A stretch of 64,000 nt of DNA, from NCBI GenBank assembly GCA_011391085.1, contig JAABRD010000031.1, positions 1-64,000 on the forward strand, given 5' to 3'. The notes beneath the pieces were generated by a model. It worked only from the letters and a program-made list of their open reading frames with translations. It was not told where the DNA came from and did no database searches. Shown here piece by piece: positions 6,488 to 58,594 of the stretch; position 1 is the stretch's first letter, and each line of letters starts with the position of its first letter. This DNA comes from Thiotrichaceae bacterium (GTDB taxonomy: Bacteria; Pseudomonadota; Gammaproteobacteria; Beggiatoales; Beggiatoaceae). The position numbers were made by a program, and so were the translations under genes.

Positions 6488-6657
6488 CCGGGCGGGACTA
6501 GAGGCTTCAGCCGGGCGGGACGATAGAAGTCTCCCGGCTGAACCGGGCGGGACGATAGAAGTCTCCCGGCGGAAGCCTCTAGTCCCGCCCGGCCCCGGCG
6601 GAAGCCTCTAGTCCCGCCCGGCCCCGGCGGAAGCCTCTAGTCCCGCCCGGCCCCGGC
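6488..6657. repeat. array of CCGG..AAGCCTCTAGTCC repeats in both orientations
   Basis: Begins with forward copies (GGGACTAGAGGCTTCAGCCGG), passes through a variant (GGGACGATAGAAGTCTCCCGG), then three near-identical 29-bp tandem units in the opposite orientation with the core GGCGGAAGCCTCTAGTCCCG. It is the same family as the clusters at 8688, 12128, 14638, 27801, 50642 and 58430. Confidence 0.8.
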
Positions 6658-10688: not shown

Positions 10689-10764
10689 TGGCGCTCCCTA
10701 GGGGAATCGAACCCCTGTCGTCGCCGTGAGAGGGCGGTGTCCTAGGCCGCTAGACGAAGGGAGC
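10689..10764 (-). tRNA. tRNA-Glu (anticodon CTC)
   Basis: 76 nt including an encoded CCA (TGG at 10689-10691 on the plus strand). The acceptor stem GCTCCCT pairs with AGGGAGC. The anticodon arm reads CCGCC-CTCTCAC-GGCG with anticodon CTC. The T arm is AGGGG-TTCGATT-CCCCT. The sequence follows bacterial tRNA-Glu closely, including CTTCGTCTAG in the D region. The CTC isoacceptor is less common than TTC in gammaproteobacteria. Confidence 0.95.
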
Positions 10765-10921: not shown

Positions 10922-10954
10922 AAACCTGACAAATCTCAAAAACCTGTCAGGTTT
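10922..10954. repeat. AAACCTGACA...TGTCAGGTTT palindrome
   Basis: Perfect 10-base arms (10922-10931 and 10945-10954) around a 13-base loop. A related palindrome (57806-57837) lies inside the restriction-modification gene. Here it could also act as a transcription barrier. Confidence 0.7.
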
Positions 10955-12106: not shown

Positions 12107-12426
12107 GAACCGCTTCCAAACATACAACGGTGGAGTGGAGGCGGAAGCCGGGGACAGGTGTTGGACTAGAGGCTTCAGCCGGGGGCAGTGCCCCGCTATT
12201 TCAATTCTGTTCCAACCCCCCGGCTAAAGCCTCTAGTCCACCTATCGTTAGCCGGGGGCAGGTGTTGGACTAGAGGCTTCAGCCGGGGACAGGTGTTGGA
12301 CTAGAGGCTTCAGCCGGGGGCCGTGCCCCGCTATTTCAATTCTGTTCCAACCCCCCGGCTAAAGCCTCTAGTCCACCTATCGTTTGATGGACTAGAAGCT
12401 TTAGCCGGGGGCAAGGCCCCGCAATT
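12107..12426. other. non-coding stretch filled with duplicated repeat blocks
   Basis: No gene is seen between the App1-like gene and the convergent dnaQ; the space consists of the duplicated CCGGCTAAAGCC blocks described at 12128-12440. Confidence 0.7.
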
Positions 12427-43304: not shown

Positions 43305-45011
43305 ATGTCAAATCCTGTGTCTCTTCCGATTCCTATTCTTATCACCCTCTTGGGTCCTAGTGGCGTGGGAAAATCTTACTACCTATTCTCATTGGGTTTG
43401 GCTTTGCGCCGGTATCTGGTTAACCATCCTCCACTAAGGGAACAGTGGCAGGTGCAAGAACTTGGTGAGAGTTATTGGGAACAACTTGAACGCTGGGAAA
43501 CACAACAGAATAACCAGGGTACCTTGGAAAAAACTGGTCGAGAAGTGGTGTCGCCCTTTTGGTTTGACATTGAACAAACTGAATCCAAACATCGGTATCG
43601 TGTTTTTCTGATAGAGATGGCGACGGAGGAGATGGTAAATGGCGTGTTTCAACCCGCCGCTGGTCCTTTCACCCCGTGGAGTTATCTTCGCCAACTCTAT
43701 TCTACAAGCAGTGCTAACACCTTGTTGATGTTCGATTCCAAAGCCATTCAAGAATCCCGTTTTACGGATGCAGAACGCGCCAGTTTGAAACAGATAGAAG
43801 GTTTTTTGCAAACCCGTCCGCCCGTTAAACCGGCGATGGTGAGTGTTTGCTTAATGAAAGCCGAAGGCTTGGAGGAGGTTCACGAAAGACTGCTATCCAA
43901 ACGAAAAGAGATGGAACAGTCCCTAAAAAAATCAGGTGACACCCTGTTAGGGGATATTCTTGACGATACCCAGTATCGTCAGGAAAGTGTCAAAGGACGT
44001 TTTGATAATAACGCCCATACGGTAGAAATCGTGTTTTTACTCAAGAACTACGAAGAAGACCGTCTTCGCTATTATTCTATTTCGTCTGTGGGTCTGCAAC
44101 TGGATAAGGAGATAGATAAGGAAATCTTCAATAAGTCCAGATGTTTTGTGGCTTATAACTTGTTTAAGCCCATTCTGGATATATTAGAGGTTGTAGAACA
44201 GCATTTTAAGCAAGCAGAAGAAACCAAAAACAGGGGTATTCGGATGATATTCAAATCGCAACCTCCCCAAGAGGAATATTGTAAAACTTTGGTTGACCAA
44301 ATTCAGAAAATCCAGGCTGAACAAGCGCGTTTTTTAGAGGGCCAGGCCAACTCTCTGAATGAGAGGGAAAACAAGCTGAAAGTAGCTGAGGAACACAATA
44401 AAAGTGAAGCTAGTCGGTTGGCGGAGGCCAGAGGGAAAATCGCCGAACGTAATGCCGAATTGCAACAGGTGATTGACAAAAAAGCGAAGAAATATCAACA
44501 ATTTGAACAACTGTTGATGGAGAAAGACAAAGAAAAACGCAAGTTGGCGGAAGGGTTGATGGAAGAATTGAAAAAAGCCAATTCTTTCTGGCGACCACTG
44601 AGATGGATAGGAGGATGCCTACTGTCATTATTCTGTCTCAGTGCGATAGGCACCTACTTCTATCTTGCCGATAACCAACTAGAGATGCTATGCGTCGGTT
44701 CCGCAAGTCAGCCGTTAGATTGTCAATTGCCTAATCTGATAACTGTTCCAAAATCTCCAGTGAACTTTAAGCTATCTCCTGTTATCTCCATGCCTAATTG
44801 GCTTACCTTTGAGAAACAAAGTTTGAAATTAAGTGATACTCCATTTTCTCCAGGGGAACTTAGGTTAACGTTCTCGGTGACAAACGACAAAGGGGGAGGT
44901 CTATTTATTTTAGATACTTCCGCTACTCTATGGAAAGGGCGCAATGTGTTTGGGGTGGTGGGCATGGGAAAAGAATTAAGGGTAGAAGTTTGGGTAGTGT
45001 TGTACAAGTAA
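43305..45011 (+). CDS. Membrane-anchored P-loop NTPase with coiled coil and cadherin/Ig-like outer domain
   Basis: 568 residues. P-loop LLGPSGVGKSYYLFSL (about residues 15-30) starts a cytosolic NTPase domain. A TRAFAC-like strand FLIEMATEE (about 105-113) sits where DxxG would be, so the nucleotide is uncertain. A long coiled coil follows (about 325-430, AEQARFLEGQANSLNERENK). One transmembrane helix lies near 432-455 (WIGGCLLSLFCLSAIGTYFY). The last 110 residues contain MPNWLTFEKQSLKLSDTPFS followed by LRLTFSVTNDKGG, the signature of cadherin-like/He_PIG Ig-fold domains, which would lie outside the inner membrane. It is the last gene of the module and possibly its sensor. GAGG precedes the ATG. 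Confidence 0.65.
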   Translation: MSNPVSLPIPILITLLGPSGVGKSYYLFSLGLALRRYLVNHPPLREQWQVQELGESYWEQLERWETQQNNQGTLEKTGREVVSPFWFDIEQTESKHRYRVFLIEMATEEMVNGVFQPAAGPFTPWSYLRQLYSTSSANTLLMFDSKAIQESRFTDAERASLKQIEGFLQTRPPVKPAMVSVCLMKAEGLEEVHERLLSKRKEMEQSLKKSGDTLLGDILDDTQYRQESVKGRFDNNAHTVEIVFLLKNYEEDRLRYYSISSVGLQLDKEIDKEIFNKSRCFVAYNLFKPILDILEVVEQHFKQAEETKNRGIRMIFKSQPPQEEYCKTLVDQIQKIQAEQARFLEGQANSLNERENKLKVAEEHNKSEASRLAEARGKIAERNAELQQVIDKKAKKYQQFEQLLMEKDKEKRKLAEGLMEELKKANSFWRPLRWIGGCLLSLFCLSAIGTYFYLADNQLEMLCVGSASQPLDCQLPNLITVPKSPVNFKLSPVISMPNWLTFEKQSLKLSDTPFSPGELRLTFSVTNDKGGGLFILDTSATLWKGRNVFGVVGMGKELRVEVWVVLYK

Positions 45012-45020
45012 TGGTATAGC

Positions 45021-45146
45021 GGTTTTGGAGTACGGAATTAATTCCGTTGGAGTACGGAATTAATTCCGTTGGAGTACGGAATTAATTCCGTTGGAGTACG
45101 GAATTGATTCCGTTGGAGTACGGAATTAATTCCGTACTCCAAAACC
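45021..45146. repeat. five 22-bp units GGAGTACGGAATTAATTCCGTT, palindrome of palindromes
   Basis: Units start at 45027, 45049, 45071, 45093 and 45115. Each contains the 14-base perfect palindrome CGGAATTAATTCCG (one has a G substitution). The ends GGTTTTGGAGTACGG and CCGTACTCCAAAACC are also inverse, so the whole array is self-complementary. Confidence 0.9.
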
Positions 45147-45228
45147 CATAACCATTACCTTTGCAACACTACCGAAGTTCGTATCTTAGTTAAGTAGATA
45201 ATGCCAGTGGCAACACTCTCAAAGTATA

Positions 45229-50455: not shown

Positions 50456-50982
50456 TAGAAAAGGTGCTATAATTTGCTTATACCGAACCTAAAACCAAAA
50501 TGATTTTCTCCTTATTCATGTTACCGTAGGGAATGCCAGAAGGTGAAGCACTGGTGGACTAGAGGCTTCAGCCGGTGAGGTGCCGGTGGACTAGAGGCTT
50601 CAGCCGGGGGGACTCGCGATTTCAATTATGTTCCACGCCCTCCGGCTAAAGCCTCTAGTCCACCAATGCCACCGGCTAAAGCCTCTAGTCCACCAATGCC
50701 ACCGGCTAAAGCCTCTAGTCCACCAATGCCACCGGCTAAAGCCTCTAGTCCACCAATGCCACCGGCTAAAGCCTCTAGTCCACCAATGCCACCGGCTAAA
50801 GCCTCTAGTCCACCAATGTCACCGGCTAAAGCCTCTAGTCCACCAATGTCACCGGCTAAAGCCTCTAGTCCAGCAGCGCATTTTTGGAATAGGTTCAAAA
50901 TTTTGACGACCTTTTTTTGAGAATTGCCAATTCTCACTCACATTCTTCTTCAATGGCCCCACGATTTAGATGACCGAATCTT
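50456..50982. other. non-coding stretch dominated by a repeat array
   Basis: Contains two forward GGACTAGAGGCTTCAGCCGG repeats (50550-50609), a GCGATTTCAATTATGTTCCA spacer and the eight-unit array at 50642-50873. A 103-codon minus-strand frame repeating GLEALAGGIG is rejected. Nothing else is seen. Confidence 0.75.
50642..50873. repeat. eight 30-bp tandem units of the CCGGCTAAAGCC repeat
   Basis: Units begin every 30 bases from 50642 to 50852. Each is CCGGCTAAAGCCTCTAGTCC followed by ACCAATGCCA (the later ones have ACCAATGTCA). There are no variable spacers, so it is not CRISPR. Because the unit is divisible by three it stays open as a ten-residue repeat on the minus strand. Confidence 0.92.
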
Positions 50983-53655: not shown

Positions 53656-55170
53656 ATGCCCACCCTCACCCTCATTTACAGCACCCGTCATCCCGACCCC
53701 ACTTTTCGCCACCATCTTCAAGACACTTGCGGTCTTCCTGACGTGGAAATTCTGGCCTACACCAACCCTGGTCAAGATTCCCTCAGTACCCTTTATAATC
53801 GCGGACTTGCGGTGGCCAGTCATTCTATTGTGGTCTTCCTCCATGACGACCTTCGTTTTGAAACCCCCAACTGGGGACCTCTCCTCCTCCAACATTTTCA
53901 ACATTCCAATTTTGGCATTTTGGGAATCGCAGGCACCACTGAGTTACCTCAATCCGGTCAATGGTGGCAACCTCCTCTCACCACTTTGGGTATCGTCAAA
54001 CATCAGTCCCAACAACAGGTTTGGACCTCCAAATACTCCGGCGATTTTCAACACCATATCCTCCCCGCTGTTTGTGTTGATGGCGTCTTCATGGCGGTCA
54101 ATAAAAACCTCCTCCAAGAAAATTTCAATGAACAACTCCCAGGTTTTCATTTTTATGATGTTGACTTTTGTCTGAACAACCATCTGGCGGGAGTGAAAGT
54201 AGGCGTTATCTTCAATCTCTCCATTCTGCATAAATCCATCGGTCAACCCACCGCCGCTTGGGAACAGGCACGGTTACAATTTCTCACTTATCACCAGTAT
54301 AACCTCCCCTGTGCTATTCAACCTGACCTTATTTTTGAAAATACTCTGGTGCCACTCAATCGTTACCCTAAAGTCACCGTGATTATTCTCCACAAGTCCA
54401 AGAACACGCTACTATTTAACTGTCTCAACTCCTTTGCAGAAATCTGTCGCTATCCGCACTATGAGATTCTCATTGCCGATACCGGTTCGACTCCATTAGA
54501 ATTAGAAGAAATTTATCAACTGGTACACACTTCCACCCTCCAAATAAAAGTGATAGAATTTGACCAATACCACTTTGGTCAGATTAACAATACCGTCGTG
54601 TTTCAACATACCGACGCCAGCAGTGACTTGCTTCTCTTCTGTAACAACGACATTGAATTGATTAACGACGCCCTGACTCGAATGGTGAAAGTTTATCTTG
54701 ACCATCCAAACCAATGTGGTACAATTGGATGTCGCCTCCACTTTGCCGATAACAAAATTCAACATGCAGGGATTCACTTGACGTTTAACCCATTGCAACC
54801 TCTGCAAATTGGACACCGCGGTTATCAATCCGATTACCAGTATTCGAACGCAGGCGTCGAGGCCGGTGTGATAGGTTCCACCGCGGCTTTTTTACTGATG
54901 GAAAGGTCACTGTTTGAACAAATTGGAGGCTTTAACACCGCTTACACCGAATGTTTAGAAGATGTGGAACTGAATCTAACTTGCTTACAACACCAGCGGA
55001 TTAACTATCTTGTCAATGATGCCGTCTGTTATCATTTTGAATCGCAGACTCGTACTCAAAAGGGAGTTATGACAAAAGATGGAGAACGGTTAAAACAATT
55101 TTTGCAGAAAGTTCGTTATTCTGCCGGACTAGAGGCTTTAGCCGGTGACTGGGGCACGTTTTCCGGCTAA
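53656..55170 (+). CDS. GT2-family glycosyltransferase with two catalytic-type domains
   Basis: 504 residues. An N-terminal GT2-like domain (about residues 1-225) has HSIVVFLHDDLRFETP (DDx) and FYDVDFCLNNHLAG. The second (about 233-490) begins KVTVIILHKSKNTLLFNCLN, has LLLFCNNDIELI (D-x-D-like) and ends with ECLEDVELNLTCLQHQRINY (ED, acceptor site). It is probably involved in surface polysaccharide or O-antigen building. The final 16 residues (AGLEALAGDWGTFSG) and the TAA stop are encoded by an inverted pair of the intergenic repeat, so the native C terminus was lost or extended. Confidence 0.8.
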   Translation: MPTLTLIYSTRHPDPTFRHHLQDTCGLPDVEILAYTNPGQDSLSTLYNRGLAVASHSIVVFLHDDLRFETPNWGPLLLQHFQHSNFGILGIAGTTELPQSGQWWQPPLTTLGIVKHQSQQQVWTSKYSGDFQHHILPAVCVDGVFMAVNKNLLQENFNEQLPGFHFYDVDFCLNNHLAGVKVGVIFNLSILHKSIGQPTAAWEQARLQFLTYHQYNLPCAIQPDLIFENTLVPLNRYPKVTVIILHKSKNTLLFNCLNSFAEICRYPHYEILIADTGSTPLELEEIYQLVHTSTLQIKVIEFDQYHFGQINNTVVFQHTDASSDLLLFCNNDIELINDALTRMVKVYLDHPNQCGTIGCRLHFADNKIQHAGIHLTFNPLQPLQIGHRGYQSDYQYSNAGVEAGVIGSTAAFLLMERSLFEQIGGFNTAYTECLEDVELNLTCLQHQRINYLVNDAVCYHFESQTRTQKGVMTKDGERLKQFLQKVRYSAGLEALAGDWGTFSG

Positions 55171-55263
55171 AGCCTCTAGTCCACCCGTAAGTTGATTCTG
55201 CTGGACTAGAGGCTTCAGCCGGTGGCAGGGGCACGTTTTCCGGCTGAAGCCTCTAGTCCACCC
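55123..55263. repeat. four alternating CCGGCTAAAGCC-family repeats, the first overlapping a coding region
   Basis: CCGGACTAGAGGCTTTAGCCGG, then TTTTCCGGCTAAAGCCTCTAG, GGACTAGAGGCTTCAGCCGG and TTTTCCGGCTGAAGCCTCTAG. The first two form the last 16 codons and stop of the GT2 gene. Confidence 0.85.
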
Positions 55264-55304
55264 ATATTTTTTTCGCAATCATTCATTGCTAAATACAAAC
55301 ACCT

Positions 55305-58300
55305 ATGTCCAACCTACTCATTCAAACCTACTATCAACAACTCGACGACCTCCTCCGCTTCGGTGGCGCTACCCATGAAACGGCCCTGCGGAATCCCTTT
55401 TTTACTCTTCTCGATGCGTATTGTCGTCAGAAGCAATTGCGTTTAGTTCCAGAATTGGCTTTAAAAACGGCAAAGGGGGCGTTAGTGCGGCCCGATGGGA
55501 CAGTGCGTGACCTGTTGCAACAAGATTGGGGCTACTGGGAAAGTAAAGATGAGGATGACGATTTGGCTGAGGAGATTCGGAAAAAATTTGCCAAGGGTTA
55601 TCCACAAAGCAACATCTTGTTTGAAGATTCCCAAACCGCTATTTTGATTCGCGAAGGTCAAGAAATCATGCGGGTGAGGATGCGGGAGGCCGAGGCGTTA
55701 GATAAATTATTAATTGCTTTCGTCAGTTATGAACGTTCCGAAATTAAAGAATTTCGGCAAGCGATTGCGGCGTTTAAGGAACAGGTGCCGAAATTAGCCA
55801 GTGAGTTGCGTAAGTTCATTGATAGCGTGACCGCCCCCGCATTTCTGGCGGCACGGGATAAATTTTTAGCCCTCTGTCAGAAGTCAGTCAATCCCGATTT
55901 CACGGCAGAGAATGTCCGCGAGATGATGATTCAGCATCTCTTGACAGAGGAGATTTTTTTGACGATTTTTGAGGAGTCGCAATTTCATCGTGAAAATAAT
56001 ATTGCCAAAGAATTGCAACAGGTGGTGGAGACCTTTTTTGTGGGGGCAGTGAAGCGACGCACATTGGAAAATATGCGGCATTATTATCAAGTTATCAAAG
56101 CGCGGGCCGCCGAGATTGCGGACCATCACGAGAAGCAAAGTTTTCTTAAAGTGATTTACGAGGAGTTTTACAAAGCCTATAATCCCAAGGGTGCCGATCG
56201 GTTGGGAATTGTCTATACACCACAAGAAATCGTGCGCTTTATGATTGAGAGTACCGATTTTTTGCTACATAAACATTTTCGCCGGGTGTTGGCGGATCCG
56301 CAGGTGGAGATTTTGGACCCGGCGACGGGGACAGGGACGTTTATCAGTGAGTTGATTGAATATTTGCCACGTCATCAGTTGCTATATAAGTATCAGGAGG
56401 AGATTCATTGCAATGAAGTGGCGATTTTGCCTTATTATATTGCGAATCTGAATATTGAGTTCACTTATAAGCAGAAGATGGGGGAGTATGAGGAGTTTCG
56501 GCATATTTGTTTGATGGATACCTTGGATAACACCGCGATGTTGAATTATGCAGGGAAGCAAGCCCGGTTAGGGTTTTCGGGGGAGAATGCGGCGCGGATT
56601 TTGGGGCAGAATCAACGGGAGATTTCGGTCATCATTGGGAATCCCCCGTATAATGCCAATCAGCAGAATGAGAATGACAATAACAAGAATCGCGAGTATA
56701 AAGAGGTTGACAAGCGAATTAAGGAGACGTATGTGGCCCACAGTCGGGCGCAAAAGACCAAAGTGTATGATATGTATGCCCGCTTTTTGCGCTGGGCCAG
56801 TGATCGGGTCGCGCCCAATGGAATCGTGGCGTTTGTCACGAATAACTCGTTTATCAATGCCAAGACGTTTGATGGGTTTAGAAAGTGTGTTGCGGAGGAG
56901 TTCAATGAGATTTATATCATTGATTTGAAAGGTGATGCCCATACCAGTGGGGAACGTCGGAAGCAGGAAGCTGGGAATGTTTTTGATGACAAGATTCGGG
57001 TCGGGGTAGCGGTTTATTTCCTAGTACGTAAGGAGAATGCGTCAGGGTGTAAAATTTTTTACACCGCCGTGGCCGATTTTTTGACCGCAACCGAGAAGAA
57101 GGCGTTCTTGCATCAACAGAAATTTGCTGACTTGCGCTTTGACCACGTCATTCCGGATGCCAACCACAACTGGATTCAGTTGGTGGAGAACGATTTTAAC
57201 AGTTTGTTGCCCTTGGTCAGTAAGGAAGTCAAGGCTGGGAAGAGTGAGGAGGCCGTGTTTGAGTTGTTTTCATTGGGGGTGGTGACTACACGGGATGAAT
57301 GGGTTTATGATTTCGACAAGAAAAATCTAGCCGCCAAGGTTAAGTTTTTCTGCGAATTTTATGAACGGGAAAAAGTGAGATGGAAGACTGCCAAACAGGA
57401 TGTGTCGGTCACTGATTTTGTTGACAGAACCATCAAATGGACCGCCGAATTGGAAACTCATCTGAAGAAAGGGTCGATGTTGCACTTCAACAAAAAGTGT
57501 ATCGTCACTTCTTTGTACAGACCTTTTGTCAAACAACTTTTCTATTTCGATAGAATCATCACTCATAGGATTTATCAAAACGAAGACATTTTTGGTTTTA
57601 GAAACCAATATCAAAATTTGGTTATCTACTTTTCCGGTTTGTCCGCCTCAAAACCTTTTCAGTGTCTGGTGACAAACCAAATTACGGGACTTGACTTTTT
57701 GGAAAAAACACAGTGCCTCCCCCTCTATCGCTACGACCAAAACGGCGAACGACTAGATAACATCACAGATTGGGCGTTGCAACGGTTTAAAGACCACTAT
57801 TCGTCAAACCTGACAAGTCTTGAAGACCTGTCAGGCTTAAAGAAACTCGACATTTTCCATTATGTCTATGCAGTCCTCCACTGCCCCACTTATCGGCAAC
57901 GGTATGAAGTGAATTTAAAGCGCGACTTCCCGCGGATTCCCTTCTATCCCAATTTCTGGCAATGGGGGAAGTGGGGGAAGCGATTAATGGACTTGCATGT
58001 GAATTATGAGAAGGCCAAACCTTCTCCTTGGGTACGTCTTGACCATCCCACTGCCAAAACCGTTTCCCCCAAACCGAAATTGAAAGCTGACCCGCAGGCC
58101 GGGCAAATTATCATTGATGACCAGACCACCTTAACGCAGATTCCAACGATTGCCTGGGCTTATAAACTGGGCAATCGGAGTGCGTTGGACTGGATTTTAG
58201 ACCAGTATAAGGAGAAGACGCCTAAAGATAAAACGATAGCGGCGAAGTTCCATACCTATCGATTTGCCAATTATAAGGAAGAGGTGATAGAATTGTTGCA

Positions 58301-58358
58301 ACGGGTGGGGACGGTGAGTGTGGAGACGATGAAAATTGTGGAAGAGATGAAAGAGTAA
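55305..58358 (+). CDS. Single-chain restriction-modification enzyme (N6-adenine methylase with nuclease-like N terminus)
   Basis: 1017 residues. The N terminus has a possible PD-(D/E)xK nuclease core: VRPDGTVRDLLQ, then WGYWESKDEDDD (E-x-K, about residues 63-85). A helical linker of about 200 residues follows. The methylase has SAM motif I EILDPATGTGTFISELIEYL (about 340-359) and catalytic motif IV IIGNPPYNANQQ (about 445-456). The last 450 residues would hold the target-recognition region. It resembles the methylase half of type ISP enzymes or type IIG enzymes; no helicase motifs are seen. An in-frame palindrome (57806-57837) encodes NLTSLEDLSGL near residues 836-846, yet the frame is preserved. 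No separate methylase or specificity gene lies nearby. Confidence 0.75.
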   Translation: MSNLLIQTYYQQLDDLLRFGGATHETALRNPFFTLLDAYCRQKQLRLVPELALKTAKGALVRPDGTVRDLLQQDWGYWESKDEDDDLAEEIRKKFAKGYPQSNILFEDSQTAILIREGQEIMRVRMREAEALDKLLIAFVSYERSEIKEFRQAIAAFKEQVPKLASELRKFIDSVTAPAFLAARDKFLALCQKSVNPDFTAENVREMMIQHLLTEEIFLTIFEESQFHRENNIAKELQQVVETFFVGAVKRRTLENMRHYYQVIKARAAEIADHHEKQSFLKVIYEEFYKAYNPKGADRLGIVYTPQEIVRFMIESTDFLLHKHFRRVLADPQVEILDPATGTGTFISELIEYLPRHQLLYKYQEEIHCNEVAILPYYIANLNIEFTYKQKMGEYEEFRHICLMDTLDNTAMLNYAGKQARLGFSGENAARILGQNQREISVIIGNPPYNANQQNENDNNKNREYKEVDKRIKETYVAHSRAQKTKVYDMYARFLRWASDRVAPNGIVAFVTNNSFINAKTFDGFRKCVAEEFNEIYIIDLKGDAHTSGERRKQEAGNVFDDKIRVGVAVYFLVRKENASGCKIFYTAVADFLTATEKKAFLHQQKFADLRFDHVIPDANHNWIQLVENDFNSLLPLVSKEVKAGKSEEAVFELFSLGVVTTRDEWVYDFDKKNLAAKVKFFCEFYEREKVRWKTAKQDVSVTDFVDRTIKWTAELETHLKKGSMLHFNKKCIVTSLYRPFVKQLFYFDRIITHRIYQNEDIFGFRNQYQNLVIYFSGLSASKPFQCLVTNQITGLDFLEKTQCLPLYRYDQNGERLDNITDWALQRFKDHYSSNLTSLEDLSGLKKLDIFHYVYAVLHCPTYRQRYEVNLKRDFPRIPFYPNFWQWGKWGKRLMDLHVNYEKAKPSPWVRLDHPTAKTVSPKPKLKADPQAGQIIIDDQTTLTQIPTIAWAYKLGNRSALDWILDQYKEKTPKDKTIAAKFHTYRFANYKEEVIELLQRVGTVSVETMKIVEEMKE
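57806..57837. repeat. palindromic repeat inside the restriction-modification gene
   Basis: AAACCTGACAAGTCTT and AAGACCTGTCAGGCTT pair in 14 of 16 positions. The same palindrome type (AAACCTGACA...TGTCAGGTTT) occurs between genes at 10922-10954. Confidence 0.8.
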
Positions 58359-58429: not shown

Positions 58430-58594
58430 GGTGGACTAGAGGCTTCAGCCGGGGGCATGGCACCTTCATTCAAACCACCGGCTAAAGCCTCTAGTCCACC
58501 CATTCACCGGCTAAAGCCTCTAGTCCACCCATTCACCGGCTAAAGCCTCTAGTCCACCCATTCACCGGCTAAAGCCTCTAGTCCACCCATTCAC
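58430..58594. repeat. CCGGCTAAAGCC-family cluster with four 30-bp tandem units
   Basis: One forward copy (GGACTAGAGGCTTCAGCCGG at about 58433) and then four tandem ACCGGCTAAAGCCTCTAGTC-family units of 30 bases, each followed by CACCCATTC. They end about 35 bases before the ABC ATPase start. Confidence 0.9.

Follow-up and report, generated by a model that had tools for sequence, protein, structure and literature searches.

Palindromes lying in frame inside genes are known from RPEs and from some REPs, and a case in which REPs occupy the same site in recB is in print. According to the available text of PMC10969869, Rickettsia and Wolbachia palindromic elements (the former here RPEs) occur in frame within pre-existing open reading frames (ORFs) of unrelated genes. 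REPs are described in the accessible portion of PMC3733652 as high-copy palindromes of 20–40 bp that also form dimers and sometimes lie inside genes; the same text reports that two Xanthomonas recB genes contain different REPs at nearly the same position, and it also mentions REP-like families that have no conserved terminal motif. In Ca. Thiomargarita nelsonii, from a genus for which PMC4853749 uses the family name Beggiatoaceae, the consulted sections of that paper describe many MITEs, among them one in hupL with 10-bp direct repeats, and eight repeat consensuses that are typically palindromic, several of them unidentified.

The palindrome considered here resembles RPEs in behavior, with 14 of 102 copies, spread over 11 genes, lying in frame within ORFs that already existed and differ in function, but it measures 33 nt and comes from Beggiatoaceae, whereas RPEs are 100–150 bp long and rickettsial. 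The analogy with RPEs drawn in a preliminary description of this locus holds for behavior and fails for membership. With the Thiomargarita MITEs the palindrome has its bacterial family in common, but the cases recounted in those sections disrupt genes (PMC4853749). Palindromic DNA that codes for a peptide is also a feature of PARCEL (palindromic amphipathic repeat coding elements), judging from the accessible part of PMC2996958. Searches by sequence and for Beggiatoa or Thiothrix palindromes found no published description of this element in the literature text they reached.

Results

The window (the whole 64,000-nt stretch of DNA that was analyzed) contains two copies of the palindrome, one of them inside a gene for a restriction-modification (R-M) enzyme:

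57806..57838, + strand: dispersed palindrome copy, 33 nt, AAACCTGACAAGTCTTGAAGACCTGTCAGGCTT, read as NLTSLEDLSGL (codons 57807-57839)
10922..10954, + strand: second palindrome copy, AAACCTGACAAATCTCAAAAACCTGTCAGGTTT, intergenic, more decayed than the R-M copy
55305..58358, + strand: host gene, DrdV-like type IIG / type ISP-C R-M enzyme, 1017 aa (Pfam, PADLOC, PDB)
57255..58295, + strand: Type_ISP_C specificity domain, residues 651-997 (Pfam, E=1.5e-96)
57801..57851, + strand: loop Y832-I850 (both residues invariant), 17 residues here, 9 in 84/109 homologues

The copy at 57806-57838 is a near-palindrome with a 3-nt center and 2 of its 15 arm pairs mismatched, and it encodes residues N835-L845 in frame. 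The preliminary description had reported a palindrome in frame within this gene, and the 1017-residue ORF bears this out; its extent of about 32 bp (57806-57837) fell short of the actual 33 nt by omitting the central G. The intergenic copy was likewise correctly placed; its neighbors are a minus-strand tRNA gene (10692-10764) and, on the other side, the next ATG (about 11015). Rfam, applied to the window at gathering threshold, reported a tRNA and nothing else.

The host is a predicted enzyme, assigned from its sequence. Pfam finds ISP_coupler, N6_Mtase, Eco57I and Type_ISP_C, placing a coupler, an N6-adenine methylase and Type_ISP_C in one chain; PADLOC reports REase_MTase_IIG at 1021.5 bits; N446-P447-P448-Y449 and D64, E79 and K81 are invariant across a 19-sequence alignment (A1). 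Residues 2-1015 align with DrdV (PDB 7lo5, E=0), a full-length match, but the loop is 8 residues longer at the palindrome, where DrdV shows an 8-residue gap. An AlphaFold2 model of middling quality (mean pLDDT 71, pTM 0.50) also has DrdV as its top two structural matches (7lo5: Z 40.0, rmsd 25.4, 874 aligned; 7lvv: Z 38.5, rmsd 25.9, 881 aligned), and predicts the loop as coil between helices 820-835 and 847-858, with pLDDT <50 at residues 836-840.

The C-terminal domain is common to the host, LlaGI and LlaBIII. In phmmer the insert falls opposite LlaBIII residues ~1394-1402, a weak stretch of the alignment, within the core subdomain (1291-1448). The available text of PMC4872093 ends the core and begins the guide of LlaBIII at 1448, places the recognition elements of LlaGI in loops IV-VI (1223-1230, 1324-1331, 1365-1374) and a helix (1286-1294), and puts LlaBIII numbering about eight lower than LlaGI at the last loop. 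By alignment, the insert would thus lie in the core of the specificity domain and outside the recognition loops published there. The suggestion that it sits in the region reading the DNA target is upheld as regards the Type_ISP_C domain and, on this weak alignment, is not upheld as regards the recognition loops.

Alignment was possible for 109 of 110 homologous R-M loci (L040 did not align), and an NLTSLEDLSGL-like peptide occurs in none of the 109. The preliminary description had proposed this alignment with orthologues and had named the same residues in them as the result that would speak against an insertion; the residues are absent. In L042, which at 60% identity is the nearest paralogue within this genome, the loop has 9 residues. 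The change from 9 to 17 residues is a net gain of 8, not the clean addition of about 11 first estimated.

Elsewhere in the 5.77-Mb genome, the pattern CCTGACAN{6,20}TGTCAGG gives 112 perfect-arm matches versus 0 for the reversed pattern, and the 27-nt form with at most 3 mismatches gives 116–121 matches per strand versus 0 in the control. A chance palindrome was rejected, as all reversed-pattern controls were 0. The anatomy of the family was described from 75 fetched genome stretches holding 102 copies, including the 2 in the window; 86 have perfect arms, compared with 112 genome-wide. The commonest form is AAACCTGACAGGTCT-nnn-AGACCTGTCAGGTTT, 33 nt, and a second form has the outer and inner triplets exchanged (AGA...TCT). 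Ends are oriented in 57/102 copies (C before and A after, or the reverse complement), the window R-M copy being of this C...A type.

In some variants of the family, a change in the core triplet is matched by one in its partner. Related palindromes with CCG, GCT, TGA or other triplets are built on the layout R-ACCT-xyz-AGGT-Y-nnn-R-ACCT-z'y'x'-AGGT-Y, and this general form has 103 matches per strand genome-wide, versus 0 in the control. Among 125 near-consensus pairs at fetched loci of this genome, which were picked mainly around GAC copies and with a few overlapping loci counted twice, the two triplets are complementary in 116 (11 with a triplet other than GAC) and unmatched in 9. The palindrome has no match in plasmid or phage collections, and six viral contigs match it.

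Copy number was surveyed in 57 genomes, the window's own and 56 relatives, with 36 in the window's family and 21 in other families. A match was present in 33/36 Beggiatoaceae genomes, 12 of the 36 had at least 20 copies, and the maximum was 470; in the other families 4/21 genomes had one or two matches and never more, which is chance level because the backward control reaches 3. Among these 57 genomes, the palindrome is abundant only in Beggiatoaceae, represented among others by Ca. Thiomargarita nelsonii (G016), Ca. Parabeggiatoa HSG14 (G032) and Ca. Halobeggiatoa HSG11 (G033). The insertion event itself was not seen at high identity because the window's genus has no second member among the genomes searched, and in the copies taken from other genera the flanks are different. 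In a search for empty sites between congeners, most flanks gave no clean alignment. In one intergenic pair (G027/G003), with flanks 92% identical, one genome has the palindrome and its congener has another hairpin at the corresponding place, a single case that hints at replacement of one hairpin by the other. G027 also contains a long reading frame with NLTGFQNLSGLKNLSGL (L357:16686-16718), apparently overlapping tandem palindrome units, followed downstream by a stretch that we take, as a domain guess, to resemble a ketoreductase.

Further in-frame copies, which the preliminary description had proposed to look for, do exist. Counting a copy as in-gene when a long reading frame spans it, 14/102 copies lie in frame in 11 genes; ten more passed a looser ORF filter and were left out because their frames are short, because they sit close to a frame end or because they belong to a MITE. 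The 14 share a length of 33 nt, and none of the 11 copies of 32, 34 or 35 nt is in a gene, a contrast that is suggestive only. Ten are read as NLTGLxDLSGL-like and four as KPDRSxRPVRF-like peptides, and the third phase always contains TGA. By Pfam, the hosts are two type ISP-C R-M enzymes, FeoB, CbiA, an NRPS (two copies), two PKS proteins (two copies and one), a hybrid histidine kinase, a reverse-transcriptase protein (two copies), a DNA methylase and a nucleoside-phosphorylase/TPR protein. Since stop-to-stop frames of at least 150 aa cover 86% of the window, random placement would give far more than 14, and most in-gene insertions have therefore been lost or avoided.

The length gained differs from gene to gene. 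Among the matches listed, at most 30 loci per search, the peptide was found in 0/29 aligned loci of relatives at FeoB (L102) and in 0/29 at CbiA (L103); FeoB is exactly 10 residues longer than 21 of its 29 listed relatives, and the CbiA linker is 18–26 residues longer than in its 29. The R-M paralogue C108 carries a palindrome as well, at a different variable site, where it is longer by about 1 residue net. Compared with one module of LgrA (linear gramicidin synthase), the NRPS shows 8-residue gaps at both palindrome copies; against another LgrA module, the displayed portion of the alignment is ungapped at the first copy. With gains of 8 (window R-M), ~10, ~1 and 18–26 residues, a simple 33-nt insertion fits none exactly, and these alignments suggest that insertion was accompanied or followed by loss or replacement of native codons.

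Host genes also hold other in-frame repeat-like peptides (LTPGPSPRGRGE-like in L112, LPLGEGRGEG-like in L058, and tandem FLSLEGLGKLREG in L065), and these proteins may each tolerate more than one repeat family.

The loop Y832-I850 takes most of the long inserts of this R-M protein. It was surveyed in 101 homologues of suitable length plus the window's enzyme, 9 of 111 coding sequences having been left out by length. Loop length is 9 in 78 of the survey, inserts of at least 20 residues are present in 15 of the 101 homologues besides the window, and insertions of at least 15 residues at all other places of these proteins number 10. For inserts of at least 8 residues, a site at 915-920 is struck oftener than the loop (19/102 sequences). 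Sources of the long loop inserts include cyanobacteria, a betaproteobacterium, a member of Ignavibacteria, an acidobacterium (L287, Pyrinomonadaceae) and a Bacteroidetes genome.

Six of the 15 loop inserts (L290, L272, L024, L287, L279, L270) fold more stably than every control segment from the same gene, two (L259, L293) more stably than ~96% of controls, and seven (L276, L292, L248, L298, L030, L277, L299) are unremarkable by energy. The perfect arms of the L277 and L293 inserts exceed those in any control. Of the ten non-loop insertions of at least 15 residues, three are as extreme as hairpins and three more rank ≤0.032. Hairpin-rich inserts at sites other than the loop lie in L231 near query residue 173, L242 near 647 and L275 near 915.

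Eight loop inserts were searched for second copies within the fetched loci. Three have them: for L290 the second copy falls inside the span of the same R-M gene, and this insert also resembles window sequence (89.7% over 39 nt); the L272 insert recurs as two identical 25-nt segments upstream of its gene; for L024 there is a 26-nt match in another Beggiatoaceae member. At E 1e-4 no second copy was found in these loci for L293, L270, L259, L279 or L030. A portion of the L293 insert is similar to sequence found in 115 plasmid records, and the cyanobacterial L270 insert has no plasmid match; L259 and L270, from related cyanobacteria, may represent a single event.

Discussion

We consider it likely that a short, non-autonomous dispersed palindrome spread in this genome and that the R-M enzyme received one copy, in a loop that tolerates changes in length. 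In such a history, the 33-nt unit would have multiplied through the genome, probably by way of a DNA hairpin and partly carried by a 93-bp MITE, and one copy would have entered a loop tolerant of length change, with about three native codons lost or replaced. The R-M copy could have survived because the palindrome supplies a whole number of codons, 11, and two of its three phases are free of a fixed stop, so that a stop there would depend on the letters of its loop, and also because it reads nearly alike in either orientation. The change to the enzyme was presumably near neutral in function. The dispersal of the element, its in-frame position in 11 genes, its absence from the compared homologues, its place in the loop where the protein has most of its long inserts, and an R-M gene that is otherwise open are direct observations. 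Counting against this explanation are the unequal gains among host genes, the 82 solo copies (those outside the MITE), which show no evident target-site duplication (5-nt direct repeats in 5, versus 2.35 in shuffles, and none longer), and the window's own loop, whose folding energy falls short of extreme (fraction 0.051 of controls).

Whether the loop has drawn palindromes repeatedly is a separate matter. A tentative proposal, to which we give slightly less than even chances, is that unrelated dispersed palindromes have landed in it repeatedly in different phyla, each in frame, with the Beggiatoaceae case one of several independent ones. If this is true, restriction enzymes collect mobile hairpins at a defined spot. 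Weighing against this landing-site proposal are the long inserts at other sites, some of them hairpins, the greater number of shorter inserts at 915-920, the seven long loop inserts that are unremarkable by energy, and second copies for only three of the eight inserts searched. A loop that gathers unrelated inserts, several of them hairpins, offers a natural replicate series for asking whether such inserts are neutral, targeted or used.

Among other explanations, solo copies could be worn-down centers of the 93-bp MITE, with a transposase acting on the MITE ends accounting for the whole family. About 20 of the 102 copies do sit in this longer repeat or its remnants. The full-length carrier has the palindrome at its center, ends in GGTAGTGATGCACAAGGTAGTG, and has both terminal inverted repeats and a target-site duplication; its ends, at ≤2 mismatches, match 30 and 34 times per strand in this genome (control 0), and 8-bp direct repeats outside the two-ended copies listed are exact in 10/16, have one mismatch in 1/16 and are lacking in 5/16. 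Its oriented C...A ends are often shared by solo copies. However, MITE ends are missing from solo copies such as the window's, which also show no clear target-site duplication, in-gene copies preserve an exact 33-nt core, and copies in other genera have other flanks (the MITE ends having been searched in this genome only). We regard this account as unlikely for the family as a whole. A transposase acting on the MITE ends is plausible for MITE-borne copies only, and no transposase was linked to solo copies.

Within the MITE, the center of one copy carries compensating changes in both arms (CCTGCTAGG / CCTAGCAGG), and in six copies the center arms are unmatched, with GCCTTCTGG or a near variant on the left versus CCTGTCAGG. 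At L084:3775-4179, a MITE-borne copy is found close to where a short reading frame ends; this frame contains the start of an AbiEii domain (PF08843), which the copy possibly truncates.

The palindrome might instead be a REP element moved by a RAYT tyrosine transposase, the window copy being an ordinary GTAG- or CGTC-type REP. Its 33-nt size, its dispersal, the close pairs 45–57 nt apart and its occasional in-gene copies all resemble REPs as characterized in the accessible portion of PMC3733652. CGTC precedes the window copy at 57806-57838, but the tag is that copy's and not the family's: within the 7 bases next to an end, CGTC occurs in 6/102 copies and GTAG in 2/102, and a tagged REP was rejected at these frequencies. 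The genome's one Y1_Tnp match (C75; 30 bits, E=2e-6) has two palindromes of the same 33-nt layout nearby, at L302:22-54 and 372-404, with core triplets CGA and CCG; against this, that match is the only one in the genome, and no GAC copy lies in the surrounding 4 kb. Of eight Y1 loci in this and related genomes, one (L303, G001) has a single GAC palindrome in its 3.5 kb, two (L302 in the window's genome and L304 in G001) have palindromes with other core triplets, and five have neither; an association with RAYT was not accepted on this record. A RAYT origin is not supported, and we judge the REP account quite improbable.

It is also conceivable that the insert is adaptive, retuning the specificity or activity of the enzyme, and that loop inserts are selected. 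Unrelated inserts at the same loop in several phyla, the place of the loop within the core subdomain of the specificity domain, and the palindrome that the same-genome paralogue has at another variable site would all fit such a role. Yet the loop lies, by alignment, outside the recognition loops given in the text of PMC4872093 that was available, its length and sequence vary freely, and copies of the palindrome also occupy unrelated enzymes and linkers. These observations leave adaptation a very unlikely explanation.

That the residues are native, their resemblance to the repeat being coincidence or codon bias, was rejected and keeps almost no probability: NLTGLxDLSGL does resemble what we take to be a short leucine-rich motif, as in a leucine-rich-repeat-like peptide, but dispersal far exceeds the control of 0, most of the 102 copies lie outside long reading frames, another phase of the same DNA is read as KPDRSxRPVRF, and no aligned homologue has the peptide.

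The dispersed palindrome, with one copy in the R-M loop, provides a clear in-frame case in a free-living lineage beyond Rickettsia, built on a frame-neutral 33-nt unit whose hosts range from FeoB to NRPS.

The window holds other repeats as well. A second dense family, around GGACTAGAGGCTTNAGCCGG, occurs 24 times in one orientation and 26 times in the opposite one (at least 65% identity), for example at 6492-6652, 12160-12416, 50553-50880, 55123-55268 and 58430-58593, and TTGGAGTACGGAATTAATTCCG units stand in tandem at 45003-45157 with a period of 22.
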